A stretch of DNA of 40,871 nucleotides, from the IMG/VR virus record IMGVR_UViG_3300027852_000083, positions 1 through 40,871 of that record; one strand, 5' to 3'. Made by a program: the position numbers and the translations under genes. The notes under the pieces are model-generated. The model saw only the letters and a program-made list of their open reading frames with translations. It ran no database searches and was not told the origin of the DNA. The DNA comes from a virus. Shown one piece after another: positions 7,072 to 35,392 of this stretch (position 1 is its first letter; every line of letters starts with the position of its first letter).

Positions 7072-10000
7072 ATGGGAATACTTGATTATTCGAGAATAGG
7101 TAATTACAATATAATTGATGTAGACAAGACAAATGAGTTCGATTTTATAGACCCTGCACTTACTGAATTAGTTAAGAATATTACAAAAATTATTTCGTAT
7201 TTTACAGTTACTGCTAAGTATGATATGAAATATTGGTTAATTTCCTGGGAAGTCTATGGTACACCGTACCTATGGTGGATTATTACATTATATAATGATG
7301 TTCTTGATCCTTTTGAATCAAAAATAGGAGAAACTCTTCTATGTCCTGATATATCTAACATTGATGTTAAGCACTTATATTCTAAATGTACTCCTCCTAT
7401 TAAACCTGAATATACTATACCTGAAGTTAGTTCTAGTTCCAGTTCTTCTCGTTCGTCTTCTTCTGTTTCTGTGTCTAGTAGTTCTTTGAGTTCTAGTTCT
7501 TCTAGTAAATCTAGCTCAAGTGTTTCCTCTTCTAGTTCAGCCAATTCCATTTCTAGTAGTTCAAGTAGTTTAGGACCAGAAGAATTTGTAAAAGCTGAGA
7601 TAGTTCCGGGCTCTTCTTGGCATTATAAAACATTTTTATACCCTGAAGGAATTAGATCATCGCCTGCTTTTGGTGTTTTAAACCCATTAGATAATAATGA
7701 AGTAAGGTCAGTCACATATGATGACTTTACTTTATTTATGGGGAAAAGACACACAACTTGGGGATTTTATACTATTTCTTTAACATACAAAGCAAAAGTT
7801 ATAGAATGGTTTTATAATGGATCAATGTTTCCTGATTTTGAAGTTAATGCCACTTCAGGAATAAATGGGTTTGATATATGGAAAGATGATGTAGATCCAG
7901 ATTTATACTATATTGGTATTCTTAATGAGAGCATTAGAAAGCATTATTTGTTTTCTGCTAAGGTAATACATTATGTTGATGGTGATTATGTAGCTAGAGC
8001 TAATTTTGTAGAGGAAGAAGATTCAAGGTGTTTAATGGAAGCTGGAAGTTGGGCTGAGTATGAATATCCTGTATTAGTAGGTAATAATTATGTAAAAACT
8101 ACAGAAGATTTAGAATCTTCTAGAATACGGTGTCTTGGTTACGGAAAAGGTAAAGCTTGGTGGGGTGGGGCACAATATACAGATAAGTTAAATATAACTT
8201 ATACTAATGATAATAAATTTTGCAGAAATATATGGTTCGATGATTTTATAGCCAAAAAATACAAAAAGTTTGATATAGGCGGATCTGAGAATTATGTTTC
8301 TGGGGTAATTAAAACTCATTTTGATAGGGTAAATAATAAGTTACATATAATTGTAAAAAGTAATTTTGTAAGTAAAGTATCAACTCCATCATCATCTACT
8401 GAAAGTTGGATTCCCAGATCACCACTTGGATATAATGTAGTACCAAGTTTTAGTTATTTTCAAACAAAGGGATGGGAAACTATACCTAGTCGTGGTTCAC
8501 GTTGGGTTTTTGGTATTGGTTATTGCGAAATTGGTTCAATACTTCCTCCTTACGAGTGTTTAGCATATTATAATACTACTGTTTCATATGGCACAGATAA
8601 AAAATATATTCCTGGTTATGGTAGGTACCCAAGACCTGTTAACTTGCCACTCCGTTATGGTAAAGTTGAATCTATATGGAAACATAATGTTACATGGAAT
8701 TTAGTATATAGATATTGGCAACAACAAGCAACTAGCGAATATGATATTATATGTGCATATGAGTATGAATACTATCCTGATTATATTTATTACTCTGCAG
8801 ATATTGATGGGGATATAGTACAAGAAGGTACTTATAATGGAGGTGTAAGAAAAACTGAATGTGGTTATAAAATAAAACTGATGGGAGTAACTGCTGCTAA
8901 TGGTATTAGACCATTACGCTATTATGAATCCTTTGAATGTTCTACACCTGGTTATCAGGGAGCAGAGTATCATGGATCTGGTAGTAGTCCTGAGTTTCAT
9001 TATTGTTCAGCTTATGATCATTACGGTGCTGTAAACAATGTTAAGAGTAATACCCTGAAAGAATTTAAAGATTGGCATTTTAATTGTTTAAAAGAGTGCG
9101 GTATAGATAACACAGAAATTGGTTACACAAAAGATAGTACCCCTTCAGGTGGTTCTTCTATACATATTGGGCCAACTGTAGATAATTTTTACTATGCAGC
9201 AGTTAGGCGTGCAATTTTAGCGGATTTACACCCACCACCTTGTGCTTATTCCTGTGATTGTACTTTTCTTGAAAATGGTAGATGTGTTTGTACTGAAAAT
9301 TTTGGTGATACAGAATCTACACATTTTTATCAAAAAGCACTTGCTTCTAGTTCTAGTAGATCGAGTACTAGTGTAAGTAGCAGTTCTGAGAGTATTAGTT
9401 TAAGTAGTAGTTCTATAAGTAGTTCTAGTTCAAGTAGTCATAGTTCTAGTTCTTTATCTTTCAGCTCTTCCAGCAAATCTTTTAGTTCTTCAAGTAAATC
9501 TTTTTCTAGCAGTTCATATAGTTTTAGTTCCAGTTCTTCTAGTTATAGTTCCAGTTCTGCTTCTATCCCAAGTTGGTGGTCTTTAAGTAGTTCATCTAAG
9601 AGTTCAAGTTCGAGTTCAAGTTCAATCAGTAGTAGTTCTGTGAGTAAAAGTTCGAGTTCTAAAAGTTCGAGTTCTAAAAGTTCGAGTTCTAAAAGTTCAA
9701 GTTCTCAAAGTTCAAGTTCTCAAAGTTTTAGTTCAAGTTCAAGTTCAATCAGTAGCAGTTCTAAAAGTTCAAGTTCTAGAAGTATAAGTTCAAGTTCTAA
9801 AAGTTCAAGTTCTAAAAGTTCAAGTTCTAGAAGTATAAGTTCAAGTTCTAGTAGTTCAAGTTCTAATTCAAGTTCTAGTAGTTCAAGTTCTAAAAGTTCA
9901 AGTAGTTCGTCTGTTTCTAGTAGTAGTGTCAGTAGTTCATCATTTAGTTCTACCTCTTTTCCTTTGTATTGCGGTGATTTTTACACAAGAATGCGTCAAT

Positions 10001-13000
10001 GTAGAACATCATCTAATGAGGCTGATGCGTGGGATGCGTTTGATGGAATAGGTATATTTCAAGGTAGTTTTTGGTCATGTACTATTGATAATATACCAAA
10101 CCCAGATGGATCTTGTTGGATGCAATGGGATTTTGGTGTAAATAAGCATATAACTCATATTAGTATGCAACGAAGGGATGAGGTAGATTGCGACTATGGA
10201 ACCACAAACTTTCCTAAGTATTGTAGAGTTTTAGGTGCACATACAAGTAGTATGGACAACCCCATTGATTTAGGATCATACGAAACAGCAGATATACCTT
10301 TTGGTGAGTGGGGTACATGGCACAGGATAGTACAAGCACCATTTAGATTTATTAGAATTGAATTTTATAATTCTTGGATTTCATGTATTAATACATATAG
10401 AATTGCTGTTAAGGAAGTATGCTTTAGAGAATCAATAAGTTCTAGTTCAAAAAGTTTTAGTTCTAGTTCATTAAGTTCTAGTTCATTTAGTTCTAGTTCT
10501 AGTTCTAGTTCATTAAGTTCTAGTTCAAAAAGTTCTAGTTCAAAAAGTTCTAGTTCAAAAAGTTTTAGTTCTAGTTCATTAAGTTCTAGTTCGTCTAGTT
10601 CTAGTTCCTATAGTAAAAGTTCGAGTTCAAGAAGTTTAAGTTCAAGCTCAATAAGTTTTAGTTCAAGTAGTGAAAGTTATAGCAGTTCAAGTTCTAGTTC
10701 AAGTTCTTATAGTTCAAGTTCTTCTAGTTCTAGCTCTTTAAGTTTTAGTTCAAGTTCTTACAGTTCTAGCTCATCGAGTTTAAGTTTTAGTAGTTCAAGT
10801 TCGAGTAGTTTAAGTTCGAGTAGTTTAAGTTTTTCTTTCAGTTCTTCTAGTCTCAGTTCTTATAGTTTCAGTTCAAGTTCTTCTAGTTCTAGTTCTAGTT
10901 CTTCCAGCTTTAGTTCTAGTTCTTCCAGCTTTAGTTCGAGTAGTAAAAGTTCGAGTAGTAAAAGTTCAAGTAGTGAAAGTTCAAGTTCTAGTTCGGCTTC
11001 TTGGAGTTCCAGTTCAAAAAGTTCTAGTTCAAAAAGTTCTAGTTCAAAAAGTTCCAGTTCCAGTTCTAGCAGTAAAAGTTCAAGCAGTAAAAGTTCGAGT
11101 TCTTCAAGTTTCAGTTTTAGTTCATCTAGTAATAGTTCAAGTTCAAGTAGTTTAAGCTCTTCTTCGAGTTCTTCGAGTTCTAGCTCTTATAGTTCTAGTA
11201 GTTCTAGTATAAGTTCTAGTTCTAATTCTAATAGTTCTAGTTCTAGTTCCGAAAGTTCTAGTAGTTTTTCTAATAGTTCAAGTTCCAGTTCGTCTAGTTC
11301 TTATTCTAAGAGTTCTAGCAGTTTTTCTAAAAGCTCTAGTTCTAGTTCTAATAGTTCTAGCAGTTTTTCTAAAAGCTCTAGTTCTAGTTCTTCTAGTTCC
11401 AGTTCATTGAGTTCAAGTTCTAGCAGTTCTAGTATAAGTTCTAGTTCTGAAAGTTCTAGTTCTAGTTATAGTTATTCTAGTTCAAGTTCTAGTTCGTCTG
11501 TTTCTTTTTCTAGTAGTTCTTCATCTTCGTATTCATCATCTAGTTCCAGTTCTTCTTTGAGTAGTTCATCAAGTTCAAGTTTTCAAAGTTTAAGCAGTTC
11601 TAGTAAAAGTTTTGAGTCTGTAATGGACACAGGAGATTTGAATTATTGGTCTTTTGGGTCTCCTGTTGATGTTCCTTTTAATAAATATACTAATATTGAT
11701 ACTTATGGTTTATTGTATTGGGGTTTTGGTAAACCTTTAGATTATATGTGGGGTTCTTATAGTTCTTCTAGTAAATCAAGCAGTTCTTCGAGTTGGTCTA
11801 GTAACAGTAGTAGTTCATCGAGTTGGTCTAGCAGCAGTAGTAGTTCCTCTAGTAGTTTATCTAGTAGTAGCAGTAGTTCTTATTCATCGTGTCCTTATTG
11901 GAGTCCTGATAAGACCTTAGGACAAATTGCCGCTGCTTCTTCCGAGGATGGAGTCTATGTAGCATCGAAAGCTATAGACGATGATGATTTTTCTGAATGG
12001 AGATCTACAAGCGATAATAATGAATGGTGGAGAATAGATTTTGGTGTTCCTACATCTATAGGGACTGTAGAGATTCTACCAGGTTGGCATAATTTTAATA
12101 GTTGTGTTAAGGATATAACTATCAAAGGGTCTAACGACGCAATAGGATGGACACCACTTGTTAGTGGTCAAATTCCAAATGCTTCTGGTTGGGAAGTATT
12201 CCGCTTTGGTATTGCTAGTTATAGATATTTCCAGATTGACGTGGCGAATAAATGGTGGGAATCACAGAGCTGGAATATAAGTATAAGAGAAATTAGAATG
12301 CGAAGTTGTTCAAGTTCAAGTTCAAGCTATAGTAGTTCAAGTTCTAGTTACTCAAGCTTAAGCTCTAGTAGTGTAAGTTCTAGCTCCTATTCATCCTGTC
12401 CATTCTGGAGCGGTGATAGAACTACGGATGCAGTTGCAACAGCTAGTTCTGGTAGCCATATAGACTGGTCGATAGATGACAATATTTACACACCTTGGAT
12501 AGCTGCAAGTGGTGTTAATGAGTGGCTCAGGATAGATTTTGGAATCGGAAACGCTTATCCTATAAATATTGTAAGAATATTACCTTATGTAGATGGTGGT
12601 TATGCAAGAGTTAAAGATATTCTTATTAAGGGATCTAACGATGCCGTAGGGTGGACTAACCTTATTAGTAGTCGAGTTCCAAATAGTTCAAATTGGACAA
12701 CTTTTGGCTTTACAAATTCTACTAGTTATAGGTATATTCAGATAGATATATCAAATCAGTGGAATCCAGTGTTAGATAACATATCTATTCTAGAATTGGA
12801 GATGCTTGAGTGTTATGAAAGCAGTTCTTCTAGCTCTTTAAGTAAAAGTAATAGTAGTTCAAGTAGCTCCCTAAGTAATTCGAGTTCTAGTAGTAGTTCT
12901 GTAAGTAGTTCTTCGAATAGTAGTAGTTCTACGAGTTCCAGTAGTAAATCTTCAAGTAGCAGCTCTCTTAGTTTAAGTAGTAGTTCTAGTAGCATAGGCT

Positions 13001-13308
13001 CCTCTAGTTCCAGCTCTGTTAGTTCTAGTTCTTGTAGTAGCTCTAGGAGTTCCAGTAGTAGTTCTTTCTCAGAGGAAGCATGTCCTATGGATTGCGGTTG
13101 TGATTGTGCAGAGGAATGCGGTTGTGAGTGTCCAGAAGAGTGCGGTTGTGAGTGTCCCGAAGAGTGCGGTTGTGAGTGTCCCGAAGAGTGCGGTTGTGAG
13201 TGCCCAGAAGAGTGCGGTTGTGAATGTCCAGAAGAGATTTGGTGTGAATGTCCCGAAGAATCTTGTGGATGTGAATGCCCTGAAGAGAATTGTGGCCCAG
13301 AGGAATAG
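7072..13308 (+). CDS. Giant adhesin fused to a gp53-like baseplate wedge domain, with Cys-rich C-terminus
   Basis: The 2078 residues read as follows. 1-115: gp53-like wedge domain (YLWWIITLYNDVLDPFESK, then GETLLCP). 120-168: Ser linker. 168-757: Trp/Tyr-rich beta region I do not recognise, ending in a small Cys knot (CDCTFLENGRCVC). 758-962: Ser linker. 963-1120: discoidin-like domain, type A. 1122-1513: Ser linker of about 390 residues in SSSSX pentads. 1517-1563: short Trp/Gly module (DTGDLNYWSFGSPVDV). 1607-1745 and 1776-1915: two F5/8 type C (discoidin) domains beginning CP(Y/F)W. 1917-1999: Ser linker. 2001-2078: Cys-rich octapeptide repeats. The wedge domain would anchor it to the baseplate and the discoidin domains would bind surface glycans. 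The radical SAM gene begins 34 bases later. The GAGTGTAAAC before the ATG is a weak ribosome site. Confidence 0.85.
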   Translation: MGILDYSRIGNYNIIDVDKTNEFDFIDPALTELVKNITKIISYFTVTAKYDMKYWLISWEVYGTPYLWWIITLYNDVLDPFESKIGETLLCPDISNIDVKHLYSKCTPPIKPEYTIPEVSSSSSSSRSSSSVSVSSSSLSSSSSSKSSSSVSSSSSANSISSSSSSLGPEEFVKAEIVPGSSWHYKTFLYPEGIRSSPAFGVLNPLDNNEVRSVTYDDFTLFMGKRHTTWGFYTISLTYKAKVIEWFYNGSMFPDFEVNATSGINGFDIWKDDVDPDLYYIGILNESIRKHYLFSAKVIHYVDGDYVARANFVEEEDSRCLMEAGSWAEYEYPVLVGNNYVKTTEDLESSRIRCLGYGKGKAWWGGAQYTDKLNITYTNDNKFCRNIWFDDFIAKKYKKFDIGGSENYVSGVIKTHFDRVNNKLHIIVKSNFVSKVSTPSSSTESWIPRSPLGYNVVPSFSYFQTKGWETIPSRGSRWVFGIGYCEIGSILPPYECLAYYNTTVSYGTDKKYIPGYGRYPRPVNLPLRYGKVESIWKHNVTWNLVYRYWQQQATSEYDIICAYEYEYYPDYIYYSADIDGDIVQEGTYNGGVRKTECGYKIKLMGVTAANGIRPLRYYESFECSTPGYQGAEYHGSGSSPEFHYCSAYDHYGAVNNVKSNTLKEFKDWHFNCLKECGIDNTEIGYTKDSTPSGGSSIHIGPTVDNFYYAAVRRAILADLHPPPCAYSCDCTFLENGRCVCTENFGDTESTHFYQKALASSSSRSSTSVSSSSESISLSSSSISSSSSSSHSSSSLSFSSSSKSFSSSSKSFSSSSYSFSSSSSSYSSSSASIPSWWSLSSSSKSSSSSSSSISSSSVSKSSSSKSSSSKSSSSKSSSSQSSSSQSFSSSSSSISSSSKSSSSRSISSSSKSSSSKSSSSRSISSSSSSSSSNSSSSSSSSKSSSSSSVSSSSVSSSSFSSTSFPLYCGDFYTRMRQCRTSSNEADAWDAFDGIGIFQGSFWSCTIDNIPNPDGSCWMQWDFGVNKHITHISMQRRDEVDCDYGTTNFPKYCRVLGAHTSSMDNPIDLGSYETADIPFGEWGTWHRIVQAPFRFIRIEFYNSWISCINTYRIAVKEVCFRESISSSSKSFSSSSLSSSSFSSSSSSSSLSSSSKSSSSKSSSSKSFSSSSLSSSSSSSSSYSKSSSSRSLSSSSISFSSSSESYSSSSSSSSSYSSSSSSSSSLSFSSSSYSSSSSSLSFSSSSSSSLSSSSLSFSFSSSSLSSYSFSSSSSSSSSSSSSFSSSSSSFSSSSKSSSSKSSSSESSSSSSASWSSSSKSSSSKSSSSKSSSSSSSSKSSSSKSSSSSSFSFSSSSNSSSSSSLSSSSSSSSSSSYSSSSSSISSSSNSNSSSSSSESSSSFSNSSSSSSSSSYSKSSSSFSKSSSSSSNSSSSFSKSSSSSSSSSSSLSSSSSSSSISSSSESSSSSYSYSSSSSSSSVSFSSSSSSSYSSSSSSSSLSSSSSSSFQSLSSSSKSFESVMDTGDLNYWSFGSPVDVPFNKYTNIDTYGLLYWGFGKPLDYMWGSYSSSSKSSSSSSWSSNSSSSSSWSSSSSSSSSSLSSSSSSSYSSCPYWSPDKTLGQIAAASSEDGVYVASKAIDDDDFSEWRSTSDNNEWWRIDFGVPTSIGTVEILPGWHNFNSCVKDITIKGSNDAIGWTPLVSGQIPNASGWEVFRFGIASYRYFQIDVANKWWESQSWNISIREIRMRSCSSSSSSYSSSSSSYSSLSSSSVSSSSYSSCPFWSGDRTTDAVATASSGSHIDWSIDDNIYTPWIAASGVNEWLRIDFGIGNAYPINIVRILPYVDGGYARVKDILIKGSNDAVGWTNLISSRVPNSSNWTTFGFTNSTSYRYIQIDISNQWNPVLDNISILELEMLECYESSSSSSLSKSNSSSSSSLSNSSSSSSSVSSSSNSSSSTSSSSKSSSSSSLSLSSSSSSIGSSSSSSVSSSSCSSSRSSSSSSFSEEACPMDCGCDCAEECGCECPEECGCECPEECGCECPEECGCECPEECGCECPEEIWCECPEESCGCECPEENCGPEE
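9343..9956 (+). repeat. Poly-serine linker DNA repeat (second linker of the giant adhesin)
   Basis: About 205 codons are nearly all serine, built from the hexamer AGTTCN and a clear 15-bp unit (AGTTCGAGTTCTAAA and variants around 9649-9900) that encodes SSSSK pentads. Serine codons alternate between AGY and TCN. The frame is intact throughout. Confidence 0.9.
10435..11610 (+). repeat. Poly-serine linker DNA repeat (longest, about 390 codons)
   Basis: This is the longest low-complexity stretch in the window, again AGTTCT-type hexamers encoding SSSSX pentads in which X is K, F, L, Y, N, E, I or S. No stop or frame break occurs in about 1.2 kb, so selection maintains the frame. Short ORFs seen in other frames and on the minus strand here are shadows of the repeat. 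Confidence 0.9.
13093..13305 (+). repeat. 24-bp tandem repeats encoding CGCECPEE
   Basis: Units start at 13093 (CGCDCAEE), then five perfect-protein copies of CGCECPEE (13117-13236), then IWCECPEE, SCGCECPEE and NCGPEE. Synonymous third-base differences between copies show that the protein sequence has been kept while the DNA drifted. With the preceding CPMD segment this gives 25 Cys in the last 75 or so residues of the giant adhesin. Confidence 0.95.
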
Positions 13309-13342
13309 TGAAAAATATAAAATAAAGAGGGAAATGCTTGCT

Positions 13343-14488
13343 ATGAAATTAGGTTCTGTAGATTTAGAGATTACACTAAGATGCAATTTGAAATGTCCTT
13401 ATTGTTATTTACATCTCGATGGTACTAAAATAAGAGATATGTCCGATCGTACAATGCAGGCATGTATAGAGCTACTTAAAAAATATCCGAAGAATGGCGA
13501 TTATCCGCAGAGGATTACATTTTATGGAGGAGAACCTCTTTTAAAGTTTGATCTTATGAAGCGGTTTGTGTCTATGGCGGATGAAGCAAAATTGAATCTC
13601 AGATATACTGTAATGTCTAACGGAACCATAGTGACTCCTGAGATTGTAGAATTTTCAAAGAAGAGGAAGATGTACATACAGCGTAGTATTGATGGTTGTC
13701 CAAAAGTTATGGAAAAACTTAGACCTGGTGCCCTTTCTCTTTATGAGAAAGGGACAGAGTTGATAAAGGATACAAATAAAGGGACTAGGAGGATGACAAT
13801 TACTCCCGATACTGCCAAAGATTTATTTGAAGGAATTTTATACCTGTGGGAAAGTGGTTTCAGAAGAGGTTTCTCTCCCCAACCTAATTATGAGGTTGAT
13901 TGGGAGGAATCGCAGAAGCAAGATTTGATTAATAATATGCGGAAGATGGCAGACTTCTATGTTAAACAATTTAAAGATGGAAATCCTTTTTATTGGTACC
14001 AAGTATCTAGAGAAGCTGCTTGTAGATTTTCTAACTATGTAACTCAGACTGGGTGTGGCGCGGGAAAGCAATTATATTCTCTATCAGTAGACGGATATAT
14101 TTTCCTATGTCATAGGTTTACTGGAGAAGATATCAATGGGCAATTTTGTTATGGGCATATTGAGGATGTCCTTGAAGGAAAAGAAATTAAAGGTTTTGGT
14201 AATGATGTGATATCTGCTATTAAACGCGGAAGAAAGTGGAATGAGGAATGTCATTCTTGTATAGCTCAATATGGCTGCGAAAAAGGGTGCTTACATTCAA
14301 ATTATAAAGGTACTGGGAATCTTCTTAAGCCACCCGAGCTGTATTGCAGAGTTAAAAAAGAAGCTTCAAAGATAGTTACTTATATAGATTATGAGTTAAG
14401 AAATATAGATTCAGAGTGGTGGACCAAGAGAAATTTTCGTAGGGAAGCGAAAGCATACCTGGAAAAGAAGAAGAAATTAAACCAATAG
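13343..14488 (+). CDS. Radical SAM enzyme with SPASM domain
   Basis: The 381-residue product has the radical SAM cluster motif C14-x3-C18-x2-C21 (RCNLKCPYCY), a GGEP motif (TFYGGEPLLKF) and a C-terminal SPASM signature: Cys-x-Gly...DGYIFLC, then CHSCIAQYGCEKGC, then a final YC. SPASM enzymes carry auxiliary 4Fe-4S clusters and typically modify peptides or proteins (sulfatase maturases, ranthipeptide/SCIFF maturases). The start was set at ATG 13343, 11 bases after GAGGG; ATG 13334 is too close to that site. The open frame further upstream only reads the Cys repeat out of frame. The neighbour encodes a Cys/Glu-rich repeat, an obvious candidate substrate. It lies inside a tail operon, which is odd for a metabolic enzyme. 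Confidence 0.93.
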   Translation: MKLGSVDLEITLRCNLKCPYCYLHLDGTKIRDMSDRTMQACIELLKKYPKNGDYPQRITFYGGEPLLKFDLMKRFVSMADEAKLNLRYTVMSNGTIVTPEIVEFSKKRKMYIQRSIDGCPKVMEKLRPGALSLYEKGTELIKDTNKGTRRMTITPDTAKDLFEGILYLWESGFRRGFSPQPNYEVDWEESQKQDLINNMRKMADFYVKQFKDGNPFYWYQVSREAACRFSNYVTQTGCGAGKQLYSLSVDGYIFLCHRFTGEDINGQFCYGHIEDVLEGKEIKGFGNDVISAIKRGRKWNEECHSCIAQYGCEKGCLHSNYKGTGNLLKPPELYCRVKKEASKIVTYIDYELRNIDSEWWTKRNFRREAKAYLEKKKKLNQ

Positions 14489-15017: not shown

Positions 15018-15797
15018 ATGGCAGATTTGTTTAGGTATGTTGTCACTGATAAACTAGCAATCGAACTTGGACGTATTTTAGAGGGGAAGATCAAAGATGG
15101 GAATTATATAAATTCCATAGTTAAAAAGTTGACTAATAAGAATTTAAAGGTTGTTAAATTTCTTGATAGAGGTAGCTTTGGTGCTGCTTATTTACTTTCG
15201 GATGGTGCAGTTTTGAAAGCAACATTTGATTCCAGTGAAGCTAAAGCTTGTGCTACTGTAGTAGGCAAGAAAAATAAGTATATAGTTGATATTTATGCTG
15301 TTGGGAAAGTAAACAAGAAAGCAGACTTTATGGGTTTAAAAAGTATATGGTTTATTCATAGAGAATTTATTAGTAGAGATTTTACTTTAGTTCAGAAAAA
15401 GATTGCAAGGTTACTTACCAAGTTTCAAAATTCTTATGATTTAAATGGCGAGAGAACTTTGTTGGGTAAAAAAGGTATAGAGGAGATGACAAAATTCTGG
15501 TGTACAAAAGGAAGAACTCCTTCGGAAAAAAATGTTTGTAGAGAAACTGTTGTAGTCTTAGCGAGGATTATTAAAGAAATGAAGGATAAGGGTATAAGAG
15601 GTTATAAGGATTTTCATATAGGTAATCTTGGTGTTAAAAATGGTAATCTTTGTGTATTTGATTTAGGCTTTGAAGCAAAATCTCGCGGAGGCAAAATAAA
15701 AAAAATTCAAGCAAACGGGAAAATAATTAAGAAAATTATATCTGAGTTAAAAGATAAAGGAGAATTTACTCTAGCAAAAAATTTAGAAATTGTGTAA
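15018..15797 (+). CDS. Protein-kinase-like protein with C-terminal GEF-tag module
   Basis: The 259-residue product has the protein-kinase core in order: Gly-rich loop (LDRGSFGAAYLL, about 49-60), a lysine at 67 (VLKATF), a catalytic-loop equivalent YKDFHIGNLGV with D198, H200 and N203, and a metal-binding DLG at 215-217. The HRD motif is replaced by YKD, and the C-lobe is short, as in small atypical or phage kinases. The last 20 residues (ISELKDKGEFTLAKNLEIV) are the recurrent GEF module, here at the C-terminus. A GGAGAAG site precedes the ATG. The target is unknown; the Ser-rich tail linkers are an inferred possibility only. Confidence 0.8.
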   Translation: MADLFRYVVTDKLAIELGRILEGKIKDGNYINSIVKKLTNKNLKVVKFLDRGSFGAAYLLSDGAVLKATFDSSEAKACATVVGKKNKYIVDIYAVGKVNKKADFMGLKSIWFIHREFISRDFTLVQKKIARLLTKFQNSYDLNGERTLLGKKGIEEMTKFWCTKGRTPSEKNVCRETVVVLARIIKEMKDKGIRGYKDFHIGNLGVKNGNLCVFDLGFEAKSRGGKIKKIQANGKIIKKIISELKDKGEFTLAKNLEIV

Positions 15798-31123: not shown

Positions 31124-34100
31124 ATGATAATTTCTGCTAAGAAAAATAAAAAAATTAAAGCAAGAAGTGATATAAATGAATTATTGCGGTCCATTGACGA
31201 TGAACGAGTATTGATGGAAAAGTCAATACGTAAGCTTACTAAAACTAAAGCAATAGCACGCAATATTATTAAAATAGTAGATGGGAAAGCGTTTCTAACC
31301 GGCGATACTGAAGGGATTAATTATATATCATCATTCATCAGCTCTTTTTATAAAAGTATGATGGACACTCTTAATTATGAATCTTATAATAAACAACAGA
31401 AAAATACTGAATTTACGTTTGATTTATGGAGTGGTAAATTTTTACGACTTAATATAAAACCTAAATCCCAAACCACCCAGGAAATTGTTTTTACTGCAAC
31501 TATTCCTTTGAGATTAATAAAATCTTTGACAGATGTAGTAGGAAAAATTGGTATATCATATATACTTCAAATAATGTTGCGCCAATTTTGGGTTAATGAC
31601 AAAATGCCTCCTGTATTTGATTTAACATATAAATTACCTACTAAAAATAAGAAAAATGGCACAGTAATTCTTCCTGATGGTGCTTTATACTATATTCCTG
31701 AAGAACGTATAGATAAGCGCAAAGAATATTTTAACTATATTTTCGAACACGAGGGTTCATCCCCAAAAAGTATGTCGATAATGTATGATCCCTTAGTGGA
31801 AGAATTTGTATTCACTAATTCTTATGGTGGTTTATCTACTTTTTCTGTTGCTAATTGTATGAAACCATTAGATAATCATAAAAAGAGTATACTTGAACAA
31901 ACATTACGTGAAGCAATAAATATAACAATTTTTAGAAATTGGAATATTTTTAATTTATTAGACGTAAAAGTTAAGGATTTATATAATAATTATTTAAATA
32001 CAGCAGTTCATTCTATTCCTGTAGCTGATACAAGAAAAATTTTAAATAACATTGAAAAAGTTATTGAGGCCAATAAAAGTAGTGTAGTTCCTAATACTTA
32101 TTATTCTGCAAAAGGGAATTTGAAACTTATTAGCGATAATTTTACAAAGTATAAAACTATTGCAAATAAAGTTGATAAACAATTCAAAGATTTTAATACA
32201 TTTAACAAGGATAATCTTGGTGAATTGCCTTCAGTACGCAAAGATTTAGTATTGTTTCCGCATCAAGCTGAATCAGTTGCTAAAATGAAACCTGCTGGGG
32301 AAACTGCCATACTTGATGTTGCAACTGGTGGGGGGAAGACTATTGTTCTCCTATTAGATATGTTACAGCTTATGAAAGAAGGAAAAGTTAAACGTCCACT
32401 AATTGTGGCACCGAACCCAATTATTGGACAGTGGGTTGGTGCGATAAATTATTTTACTGATGGTAAGGTAAATGCTCTTGCTTTAATGACCAGTACAACC
32501 AAAAATTGGGGTAGAAGAATTAAAAAACCTGAAGATAATCTTCTCCAGCAAGCTTTAAGTGCTCCGGATAATACCATTTTTTTAACTTCTTACCCTTATT
32601 TAATTCTCGATAGTGTAGAAACTATTGAAGGTGGGTGGATATTTCCGAATGTTGATTTCTTCAAAGATGAATTGGGTGTTGATTATGTTGCTTTAGATGA
32701 AAGTCACATGATTAAAAATAGTAATTCACAAACACATAGAGCTTGTATTCAGTTAAGACCTGTAAAGTACAGAAGGCTTTCTACAGGAACTTTAGTAGTT
32801 AATACTCCTATGGATTTAGTTGGTCAAGTTGCTTTCCTAGACCCAAGAGCTTTAGGGACTGATAAAGAGTTTGCCGAAAAGTATGCAGCACCTGGTGGTG
32901 TGTCATCTGGTAGAGGAAAAACCAGAGTTACTAAATGGAGAGCAAGTGCATCTAAAGAGATTATCTCTCAATTAAGAAATCATACTTTCTATTTACAGTA
33001 CAGAGAAAAAGATTGGATTGCTTGTTTACCTAAAATAAAATATAATTATTATCCGGTACAATTTACGCCAGCACAAAAAGCTGAATATAAGAAAATAGTA
33101 GAAGAAACATTAGCTGATATAATGTCAGATCCAAGAACTAAGGATGCGTGGTTAAAGTATTTAGAACAAAAGAAGCTTGATGATGACGGCGAACTAAGTG
33201 TTGTTGGCGCTCAAATATTAGCAAAGTTTGCGATGTTAGAGCAATTTTTAACTGATCCAACATATTCACCTTTTATCAGAAAAAGTAGTTTACCTGAAAG
33301 CGATAAAACTTCGCCAAAATCACCAAAATGTGACATGCTAATGGCAGAAAGCTTTAAAAAAGATTCAAAGTGTATAATAGCAACACATTTTAAACGAGGT
33401 GCGACTCATCTTTTAAGCAAATCTAAGTATAAAGCAAGTAGTCTTTACTATGATGCAGCCCATAAAGGAAATCTTACTAGATTTATGACTGAAGCAGATG
33501 TAAAGTCCATTTTTGCGGTACAACAATCCATTTCCGAGGGATTAAATCTGCAAATGGCTGATAGAATTATAATGACTGATTTAGATTGGACTCCTGGTAA
33601 AGTAAAACAATTAATAGCTAGAATATATAGACCATTAGGACCAAAAGTAGATACTTCTAAAGTAGTCAATATCGATTATTTATATATGGATGGGTCGGCT
33701 GATGTTGCAAAGTTAGCAAGATTGATATATAAGAGAACATTTAACGCTAAAACTATGGAAGGTTCTCCGATTGAACCACCACCACCACCATCTTTTGATG
33801 ATTCGGTTTTCTTTTTGAAGCAAGAAAATCTTGCTGTTGGTGGTTATATGGAAGCAGAACGTAATCTTAACAAATGGTTTAGTGATATTGCTGAGGAACA
33901 AAGAGCTAAAGGAGATTTTTCCCCAATTGTCCCCAAAATAAAAGGTGAAATTTCTGGCAAATCTATAGATACACCTTGGGTAGTTGGTATGTCCGTGCCA
34001 CTTGATGTAGAAGGAGAACCTCTATCTGTTGCTATTTCTGCTGAAGGATTTGACGTAGAAAATGCAAAAGAAGCAAAAGATTTTTTAATAGGTAAATATG

Positions 34101-35392
34101 TGCGAACTGAATTTGGTATCGGTGTAATTACTGCGGTTTCTAGATCAAAAATTAGAATAAAATATGAGGATGGTTCTAGGACTTCCACAAGTATATTTAC
34201 TACCGTTTTATTAGACCAGTCAAAATTTGATTCTCTTGATTTAGCTGAAAGAGGTAAAGTACAAAAACGTATAGTGGAATGGAAGAAAAATGATAGAATA
34301 GTTGTAAATCCTTCTAGGGATGGAAAAGAGTTTTTTATTGGTACTGTACATTTTGTAACAGAAAATGAAGTTACTGTTAAATATGATAATGGTAAAATTG
34401 AAAAATTCCAATTGGATTCTAAAGCTCTTAAAGGTCGTGGAATTGATGAAACTAATGAAGATGTTATAGAACGGTCTGAACTTAAAAAGTGGTTATTTAA
34501 AGTAAAGAAGATAAAAATTCGTGAATCAAAAAAGAAAAAGATGACTATGAAAGACTTTGATGAGGGTGATAGGTTAATAATAAAATATGAACAAGGATAT
34601 TATATAGGGACAGTAAATAAAAAGGTATCACGACCAAGTGGTTGGCAAAGAGTGTATATAAAACTTGATGAAGGGACAGAAATTAAGTGCAGGCCAAATT
34701 CAAGTAGAATAGTAGCTCCAGGTATAGATGAAGTAAATAAGAAACAAATAAAACCTGAAGAGTTAGATAAATGGTCTATTTCTACATTAGAGGTAGAAAA
34801 AGAGGTTAAGGAAATACGTACTTCTTTGTCCTTAAACTTGATTAATAAAATGTTTTTATTAACAGGAGATTCTGATGCAGCAGATATGGTATCTCTAGGT
34901 TTTTATCAGTATAATCCATTTTGGTCCCTTCAAATTCTTTCGAAGAAGGATGGGATAGAAGCTTTGTCGAAATTAGCAAAGAGATATAAAATTTCTAATA
35001 TTGATAGTCTGTATGACTCAATTAGTACTTTGCGTAAAGATATTACAGTCCGAGACTTTAAAAGAAAATTAACTGATTCGGACATAACTAAATTCATAAA
35101 ACAGTTTTTTAAAGCCAAAAAACCTAAAAATAAGAAAAAGTTATTTTTATATTTTGCTTGGATAGACGCAAAACCATATCTTGTTTCACAAAATATAGAA
35201 AAAAATCTTGGTAAATTAAATATGGGTAAAAAGAGATTTAAGAAATCAGATGCGTCTAGGTGGTATAAATTTATAAAAAATATTTCTGAATTAAGGAAAG
35301 ATTATGGTAAAATAGTTAAAACAATTGATGTTGAAAATGCAAAATATTTCAAATTCTTTGTCAACGAAAATTATAGTATAAATATTAAATAG
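31124..35392 (+). CDS. SNF2-type superfamily 2 helicase with three C-terminal small beta-barrels
   Basis: The 1422 residues contain helicase motifs in order: HQAESVAKM (about 380), Walker A ATGGGKT (about 400), a DESH motif II (VALDESHMIKN, about 525), STGT (motif III), IIATHFKRGA (IV), and V/VI with SISEGLNLQMADRIIMTDLD and QLIARIYRP (about 830). This is the SNF2/Swi2 branch, translocating on duplex DNA. Residues 1-370 are an unrecognised N-terminal region. Three SH3/KOW-like barrels follow at about 986, 1059 and 1148 (for example KYVRTEFGIGVITAV), with a Lys-rich C-terminal domain. It lies directly after virion genes, so it may be packaged or act late in infection; this is inference. The frame is intact. 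Confidence 0.88.
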   Translation: MIISAKKNKKIKARSDINELLRSIDDERVLMEKSIRKLTKTKAIARNIIKIVDGKAFLTGDTEGINYISSFISSFYKSMMDTLNYESYNKQQKNTEFTFDLWSGKFLRLNIKPKSQTTQEIVFTATIPLRLIKSLTDVVGKIGISYILQIMLRQFWVNDKMPPVFDLTYKLPTKNKKNGTVILPDGALYYIPEERIDKRKEYFNYIFEHEGSSPKSMSIMYDPLVEEFVFTNSYGGLSTFSVANCMKPLDNHKKSILEQTLREAINITIFRNWNIFNLLDVKVKDLYNNYLNTAVHSIPVADTRKILNNIEKVIEANKSSVVPNTYYSAKGNLKLISDNFTKYKTIANKVDKQFKDFNTFNKDNLGELPSVRKDLVLFPHQAESVAKMKPAGETAILDVATGGGKTIVLLLDMLQLMKEGKVKRPLIVAPNPIIGQWVGAINYFTDGKVNALALMTSTTKNWGRRIKKPEDNLLQQALSAPDNTIFLTSYPYLILDSVETIEGGWIFPNVDFFKDELGVDYVALDESHMIKNSNSQTHRACIQLRPVKYRRLSTGTLVVNTPMDLVGQVAFLDPRALGTDKEFAEKYAAPGGVSSGRGKTRVTKWRASASKEIISQLRNHTFYLQYREKDWIACLPKIKYNYYPVQFTPAQKAEYKKIVEETLADIMSDPRTKDAWLKYLEQKKLDDDGELSVVGAQILAKFAMLEQFLTDPTYSPFIRKSSLPESDKTSPKSPKCDMLMAESFKKDSKCIIATHFKRGATHLLSKSKYKASSLYYDAAHKGNLTRFMTEADVKSIFAVQQSISEGLNLQMADRIIMTDLDWTPGKVKQLIARIYRPLGPKVDTSKVVNIDYLYMDGSADVAKLARLIYKRTFNAKTMEGSPIEPPPPPSFDDSVFFLKQENLAVGGYMEAERNLNKWFSDIAEEQRAKGDFSPIVPKIKGEISGKSIDTPWVVGMSVPLDVEGEPLSVAISAEGFDVENAKEAKDFLIGKYVRTEFGIGVITAVSRSKIRIKYEDGSRTSTSIFTTVLLDQSKFDSLDLAERGKVQKRIVEWKKNDRIVVNPSRDGKEFFIGTVHFVTENEVTVKYDNGKIEKFQLDSKALKGRGIDETNEDVIERSELKKWLFKVKKIKIRESKKKKMTMKDFDEGDRLIIKYEQGYYIGTVNKKVSRPSGWQRVYIKLDEGTEIKCRPNSSRIVAPGIDEVNKKQIKPEELDKWSISTLEVEKEVKEIRTSLSLNLINKMFLLTGDSDAADMVSLGFYQYNPFWSLQILSKKDGIEALSKLAKRYKISNIDSLYDSISTLRKDITVRDFKRKLTDSDITKFIKQFFKAKKPKNKKKLFLYFAWIDAKPYLVSQNIEKNLGKLNMGKKRFKKSDASRWYKFIKNISELRKDYGKIVKTIDVENAKYFKFFVNENYSINIK

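Follow-up and report, generated by a model that had tools for sequence, protein, structure and literature searches.

PapB forms non-alpha-carbon thioethers with Asp or Glu as the acceptor in CX3D/E motifs; it tolerates spacings of n = 0–6 as well as nested and in-line links, and prefers the Cys before the acid (PMC9413430). QhpD introduces non-alpha-carbon methylene thioethers between Cys and Asp/Glu within the protein subunit QhpC (PMC8172795), and the SCIFF maturase also makes non-alpha-carbon thioethers (PMC9413430, PMC8172795).

In this study, we analyzed 40,871 nucleotides of viral DNA (IMG/VR record IMGVR_UViG_3300027852_000083, positions 1 to 40,871), hereafter the window, in which the gene of a long tail protein is followed by that of a radical SAM/SPASM enzyme. 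The sequence points to a virion-protein maturation pair, with the enzyme crosslinking the Cys/acid repeat at the C-terminus of the tail protein, a reading to which we assign a probability of roughly 0.62. In the open-access literature searched, no paper was found that describes radical SAM maturation of a structural phage protein.

The proposed substrate is a baseplate/tail protein of 2078 aa, encoded on the plus strand at positions 7072–13,308 and assigned by domain searches and composition. It combines a gp53-like N-terminus with discoidin domains, linkers rich in Ser (36%) and the C-terminal Cys/Glu repeat. The baseplate-wedge (gp53-like) region spans residues 1–97 (7072–7362, plus strand): phrog_15542 matches the N-terminal region (3.8e-9) and phrog_7145 (baseplate wedge) matches residues 42–96 (2.7e-7). 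PF00754 revealed two discoidin stretches, the best-scoring F5/8 type C (discoidin) domain lying at residues 1620–1735 (11,929–12,276, plus strand; 3.9e-20). An adhesin role of the protein is plausible. Its N-terminus and operon context resemble those of T4 gp53-type baseplate wedge proteins; neither these proteins nor S74-chaperoned tail fibres bear a radical-SAM-modified Cys repeat in the open-access literature searched.

The segment proposed to be crosslinked, a C-terminal Cys/acidic domain delimited by composition, is encoded at 13,078–13,305 (plus strand). These last 76 residues, from residue 2003 onwards, contain 25 Cys, 27 Asp/Glu and zero Lys/Arg (33% Cys, 36% Asp/Glu), compared with 1.6% Cys elsewhere in the protein; the binomial chance of such enrichment is ~4e-26. 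An array of CGC[E/D]C[P/A]EE octapeptides with a 24-bp period occupies positions 13,093–13,287 (plus strand), as defined by TRF (24 bp, 7 copies, score 234), the list of units and pS/pN. Seven octapeptides are in register, and six read exactly CGCECPEE, in five distinct DNA spellings. Differences between units are almost all synonymous (pS 0.67, pN 0.029, values that are indicative since the units are non-independent), which argues for conservation at the peptide level alongside drift in the DNA. Both the Cys-rich C-terminus and this synonymous drift had been part of the original prediction and were recovered here. CX3[DE] occurs at 9 of the 25 Cys and CX2[DE] at 17, with the Cys ahead of the acid, the order required by PapB. 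A GTG ORF from 13,100 is merely another-frame reading of the repeat. A near-identical contig of 17.6 kb (L003/L056) independently carries the enzyme gene and the repeat start and ends within the repeat, so the full repeat assembly comes from one contig.

The putative maturase, a PapB/SCIFF-like radical SAM/SPASM enzyme of 381 aa recognized by profiles and fold, is encoded at 13,343–14,488 (plus strand). Its ATG at 13,343 lies 34 bases past the tail-protein stop codon, with an alternative ATG at 13,334. Sequence motifs on the plus strand comprise the CX3CX2C radical SAM cluster (C14, C18, C21; 13,382–13,405) and a SPASM region in which all seven Cys of the set are present, from C238 to C335 (14,054–14,347), in the pattern C238-x12-G-x4-C256, C303-x2-C306-x5-C312-x3-C316, C335. 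All ten cluster cysteines are thus present, and they are identical in the relative P0003; the complete SPASM set and the 34-base distance had been part of the original prediction. PapB (NF047865) was the best of 72 NCBIfam families (1.5e-50, 172 bits, profile positions 2–330 of 330), at a score below the equivalog cut-off of 340 bits; the other best matches were nif11-peptide maturase, QhpD and SCIFF maturase. The AlphaFold model of the enzyme (pLDDT 72, pTM 0.75) had the CteB/SCIFF maturase 5why as its top fold match (E 3e-18, TM 0.75), and the closest solved structure by sequence was the SCIFF maturase 5wgg (4e-25). The enzyme core begins at approximately residue 5 with no fused N-terminal RRE, and no leader peptide was identified. 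A scan of genome contigs yielded a weak partial relative in a Bacteroidales MAG (29% over 117 aa), and none of its neighbors is Cys-rich.

The locus resembles the PapB/PapA (freyrasin) system in having a SPASM enzyme, of the best-matching family, and an adjoining substrate in which Cys recurs ahead of Asp/Glu, CX3E among the spacings. It differs in that PapA is a short leader-core substrate, whereas the window offers the C-terminus of a 2078-aa phage protein, and in that the window enzyme is without an RRE extension and scores under the family cut-off. QhpD/QhpC provides a precedent for radical SAM Cys-Asp/Glu thioethers in a functional protein subunit; unlike the window, however, it concerns a non-viral, bacterial enzyme subunit with three fixed links and no repeat. 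CteB/ScfB (SCIFF maturase), nearest to the window enzyme among solved structures in both sequence and fold, has an N-terminal extension of ~95 residues that the window enzyme lacks, and its substrate is a short six-Cys peptide. The CXXX-repeat target family (TIGR04115), the best model for gut phage L185 and SPN3US-like phages, likewise combines a radical SAM/SPASM enzyme with a many-Cys repeat protein. However, the window enzyme reaches 68.7 bits against a cut-off of 350 bits, and the Cys-Ser/Gly CXXX targets of that family contrast with the period-8, acid-containing CxCxC target in the window (CGCECPEE). Nor does the C-terminus of a 2078-aa protein conform to the ranthipeptide product class, in which a short precursor with a leader is processed and released.

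The only close relative found, the 188-kb phage G006, shares this baseplate operon, retains both genes and has an enzyme 73% identical. Gene order is conserved although the tail proteins diverge, and the Cys tail has an altered unit order (CGCDCAED, CPEECDCE) with a similar composition (32% Cys, 41% Asp/Glu). A targeted scan for the acidic repeat found nothing besides G006, and the near-identical contig and G006 were all that the tail-protein profile search recovered. In the unrelated phage G007, a TTT-rich (Thr-rich) protein has the C-terminus CGCECEADCACECEAECECEADCGCECEAP (CGCECEAD...), with the start of a PapB-like gene overlapping its stop codon by the final base. PapB is the top enzyme model for the window, G006 and G007 alike, and each of the three partner domains is built almost entirely from Cys, Asp/Glu, Gly, Ala and Pro. 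A strict repeat pattern gave one match, L002, judged to be chance; tblastn of the repeat against named phages gave no match, possibly through low-complexity masking.

Recurrence of the pairing was assessed with a loose Cys-pattern scan, whose counts apply among the matches listed and are no census; controls for the forward test were out-of-frame matches or simple CD/CE repeats of the pattern. A radical SAM gene (PF04055) was present on the contig for 15 of the 27 ORF-borne Cys patterns versus 2 of 91 controls (p = 5e-10), and after dereplication for 11/22 versus 2/91 (p = 8e-8), both among the matches listed. In 10 of 11 lineages among these matches the nearest enzyme lay <1 kb from the Cys ORF, against an expectation of 1.95 (0 of 20,000 simulations). 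The reverse search from the enzyme profile revealed new Cys-rich neighbors in L158, L159, L161, L166 and L168; with a single query sequence no enzyme relatives were recovered from viral contigs, and a two-row profile alone succeeded. The L166 partner is a Peptidase_S74 tail fibre that, like S74-chaperoned fibres, ends in S74, with the Cys block immediately ahead of the SDERLK chaperone start. An association of the kind proposed as a check of the original prediction was found in both search directions across many phage lineages. As for the accompanying caveat, that homologous enzymes in related phages might turn up with no Cys-rich neighbor, the only close relative keeps its Cys tail. Among distant homologues, a minority (L162/163, L167 and Campylobacter phage CP21) have no ORF with a Cys repeat close to the enzyme. 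The CP21 enzymes are 6.7 kb away from Cys-rich CP21_165, which was left out of the count. No radical SAM gene was found on the contigs, themselves fragments, of the Cys-rich phage ORFs L023, L039, L082 and L085.

Action of the enzyme on the repeat, as originally predicted, is a well-supported inference because enzyme family, residue composition, second-phage synteny and the two-way association all favor it. The 381-aa enzyme, from the baseplate operon just downstream, would act on the C-terminal CGCECPEE repeats. By analogy with PapB in freyrasin and QhpD inside QhpC, it likely links the sulfur of Cys to beta/gamma carbons in the side chains of Glu/Asp, and the product would be a ladder of small thioether rings. 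More speculatively, the crosslinked tip may form a stiff, reduction- and protease-resistant end of a long Ser-rich, discoidin-bearing adhesin. The formylglycine option of the original prediction is not supported by the sequence: no CxPxR/SxAxR motif occurs anywhere in the 2078 aa (P0001), and the sulfatase-maturase model TIGR03942 gave 48.7 bits versus 172 for PapB, its own cut-off being 349.

The enzyme might instead modify the repeat through another bond, such as a sactionine (S to alpha-carbon), Cys-Gly/Pro/Cys links, epimerisation or other SPASM chemistry, which we consider unlikely. The chemistry of SPASM maturases is varied, the PapB match falls short of its cut-off, and partner repeats in other phages are Ser/Thr/Asn/Gly-rich instead of acid-rich, so acceptors probably vary between systems. 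However, the restricted composition shared by the window, G006 and G007, with PapB on top in all three, argues against this, and the scores for sactipeptide maturases are much lower (61 bits for RumMC).

Cys/acid clusters are able to bind metals, and the repeat could be an unmodified metal-binding or disulfide-bonded domain, incidentally adjacent to an enzyme with another substrate. Many unrelated radical SAM genes are found in phages, and Cys-rich phage ORFs occur on contigs without one; yet the strong two-way association, the sub-kilobase spacing in all but one of the lineages among the matches listed, the gene order kept in G006 and the fit of a PapB-type enzyme to the chemistry of the repeat render this explanation improbable. 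That the crosslinked C-terminus is a RiPP cut off and released as an antibacterial or superinfection-exclusion peptide, and no virion part, seems very unlikely. Products of related enzymes are mostly released peptides and the SPN3US-type ORFs resemble RiPP precursors, but in both the window and G006 the repeat forms part of a baseplate/tail protein of 2000 aa, no gene next to it was recognized as a protease or transporter, and the L166 repeat sits within a tail fibre.

If true, crosslinking of the tail-protein repeat would extend radical SAM chemistry, so far associated chiefly with small RiPPs of bacteria and with a few enzymes, to phage structural proteins. It would represent a new covalent-stabilisation strategy for tails, suggest what many orphan radical SAM genes of phages are likely to do, and supply natural repeat substrates for peptide-crosslinking enzymes; tryptic proteomics would miss such segments, since the domain is without Lys/Arg and the ORFs are unannotated. 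Occurrence of the pairing in many unrelated phages, cultured ones included, suggests an undescribed covalent hardening of virus particle parts. The chances are about even that this is a general, undescribed viral maturation, in which SPASM enzymes encoded by tailed phages from many unrelated lineages crosslink dedicated Cys-repeat domains and so harden or cap virion parts such as tail adhesins and fibres. Each enzyme subtype would suit its own kind of repeat, rich in acid, Asn or Ser/Gly, and in cultured phages such as SPN3US the system would be present without annotation or under a wrong one. A looser version of the pairing, with CXXX repeats, is present in cultured SPN3US-like phages, where the partners are small ORFs made up of a leader plus the repeat. 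A related gene pair occurs in SPN3US-like and Erwinia phages that are in culture, which makes the proposal directly testable.

The window is an entire IMG/VR viral record and is read as a contractile-tail module, since its genes include one for a tail sheath (phrog_23, 8.7e-91) and several for baseplate and other proteins. The tail protein (ORF 7072-13308, + strand, 2078 aa) has a gp53-like baseplate N-terminus, F5/8C domains and long Ser-rich linkers (36% Ser overall), and its last 76 residues form a domain in which 25 positions are Cys and 27 are Asp/Glu. The repeat array has a period of 24 bp, and differences among units are nearly all synonymous (pS 0.67 versus pN 0.03), in agreement with the synonymous drift reported earlier. 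The ATG of the 381-aa radical SAM/SPASM gene (13343-14488, + strand) follows 34 bases past the tail-protein stop. The sequence facts behind the original prediction, namely the ORF length, the Cys/acid C-terminus and this adjoining gene, were all correct.

The encoded enzyme matches PF04055 (1.3e-13) and carries CX3CX2C and seven SPASM cysteines. Among 72 NCBIfam models compared, PapB ranked first (1.5e-50), followed by nif11-peptide maturase, QhpD and SCIFF maturase; since its score of 172 bits lies below the curated PapB cut-off of 340, we do not claim PapB membership. The nearest PDB sequence was 5wgg. An AlphaFold model (pLDDT 72, pTM 0.75), for which eight phage enzymes were aligned, gave 5why as best fold match (E 3e-18, TM 0.75), with anSME ranking behind. 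We read the enzyme as probably working like PapB. Radical SAM enzymes generally function only where oxygen is low.

In CX3D/E motifs, PapB bonds Cys to C-beta of Asp or C-gamma of Glu, the acid lying downstream (PMC9413430). An earlier study, as quoted in PMC8172795, described strict CX3D; a later one found that PapB tolerates n = 0-6, forms links both in line and nested, and fails to react with the residues in reverse order (PMC9413430). QhpD makes Cys-Asp/Glu links within a protein subunit (PMC8172795). The window repeat is nearly all Cys, Glu, Gly and Pro, with Cys ahead of the acid and CX3E in each full unit. The most likely mechanism (probability about 0.6) is that the window enzyme would close thioether rings between Cys and Glu/Asp at the tail tip. 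That it forms other linkages on this Cys-repeat substrate is unlikely, a repeat carrying no modification is rather less probable again, and release of the modified segment as a peptide is very improbable. Within the thioether reading, a stiffening or protease-resistance role of the crosslinked tip is the least supported step. The enzyme class and its chemistry are already known; the new element would be a virion structural protein as radical SAM substrate. No such case was found in the open-access literature searched, in line with the original statement that no described phage tail protein is known to be matured this way.

One close relative was found, phage G006 (IMGVR_UViG_3300021592_000001, 188 kb; loci L089/L157), whose baseplate operon is syntenic with the window: gp53-like Ser-rich protein, a small gene judged GNAT-like on inspection, radical SAM, beta-helix protein and more baseplate genes. 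Identity is 73% for the enzyme and 44% for the N-terminal part of the tail protein. The G006 Cys domain is rearranged (CGCDCAED, CPEECDCE, CDCECPEE) with the same composition, which indicates that the Cys/acid repeat was kept through extensive turnover.

Viral contigs were scanned for CxC[DE]CxxxCxC[DE]C, and all counts refer to the matches listed. An automatic split gave 27 contigs with the pattern in an ORF that has a start codon, reaches 60 aa and is not overlapped, and 91 others; PF04055 was searched on all of them save L034, with L014, of the same contig, searched. Radical SAM genes occurred on 15/27 versus 2/91 contigs (Fisher's test, p = 5e-10), or 11/22 versus 2/91 after dereplication (p = 8e-8). 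Because contigs of the two groups differ in size, spacing was tested separately: in 10 of the 11 positive lineages an enzyme gene lay no more than 1 kb from the Cys ORF (1.95 expected from random placement; 0 of 20,000 simulations reached this value). In the unrelated phage G007, a Thr-rich protein ends in CGCECEADCACECEAECECEADCGCECEAP; the enzyme gene overlaps its stop codon, PapB is the enzyme's top match, and a neighbouring gene is virion structural by PHROG. CTCDCNY repeats with several enzymes were found in G009/G010/G011/G016 and G012, and enzymes of G018, G020 and G021 have an N-terminal extension of ~70 residues. G013/G014 (L069, L093) carry 8-12 radical SAM matches per contig; such clusters, of up to ~8-12 matches, adjoin Cys-rich ORFs there and in G011/G016, L166 and L168. 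Separately, phage ORFs at L039, L082 and L085 have 92-148 Cys in CC-rich repeats, with no radical SAM gene on their contigs, possibly a different Cys-rich virion system.

The reverse search used profile A1, built from the window and G006 enzymes, and matched 21 viral loci. Homologous radical SAM genes in related phages without a Cys-rich neighbour had been named as refuting the maturation idea. Of the relatives that match over most of the enzyme's length, those in G006, L158, L159/160, L161, L166 and L168 had Cys-rich neighbours, unselected by the search; L162/163 and L167 had none. S74 chaperones self-cleave near the chaperone start. The L166 partner, a tail fibre with Peptidase_S74 (2.5e-6), has its Cys block directly before the SDERLK chaperone start, so this block would form the end of the mature fibre, as it does in the window tail protein. 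Overall, the evidence favours, without proving, a general phage maturation strategy by radical SAM enzymes on Cys repeats. The Campylobacter phage protein CP21_165 (L181 14834-15022), with CxxC repeats (CYDCTDCYDCNECENC) and a radical SAM gene 6.7 kb off, was excluded from the partner count.

Among cultured phages, SPN3US and SPLA5c of Salmonella and the jumbo phages Phobos, Asesino and Kwan of Erwinia carry one or two Cys ORFs of ~130-150 aa, with ~20 Cys each in CXXX repeats and similar N-terminal parts, flanked by a virion structural gene on one side and two radical SAM genes on the other. These ORFs (NC_027402 (SPN3US) 143.4-144.3 kb = L188 7417-8221; L182 4072-4879; L189-L191) are un- or mis-annotated; in SPN3US, one of them is crossed by gp100, which is called in a different frame. 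TIGR04115, a CXXX-repeat target family, is the nearest model for one enzyme of this set and for the gut-phage enzyme L185 (301 bits versus cut-off 350). The pair shares with the window a radical SAM gene and a Cys-repeat ORF in a phage, but the enzyme subtype differs and the Cys ORF is free-standing and without acids; it is a looser analogue. The pairing thereby extends beyond metagenomic contigs, and these phages offer a bench system for it.

Elsewhere in the window, a 1422-aa SNF2-type helicase ORF (31124-35392) lies inside the tail/baseplate module. A 259-aa ORF (15018-15797) that follows the radical SAM gene downstream, and whose neighbours encode proteins with giant Ser-rich linkers, shows kinase/APH-like motifs by eye (DRGSFGAAYLL, DFHIGNLG, DLG), with no Pfam match, no credible PDB sequence match and no counterpart found in G006. 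A short motif resembling L-x-x-x-GEF-x-LA[KR]-x-L, which may be a common tag for targeting or processing, recurs N- or C-terminally in several otherwise unrelated small ORFs (14687, 15018 (C-terminus), 26170, 35414, 38259 and 38591).
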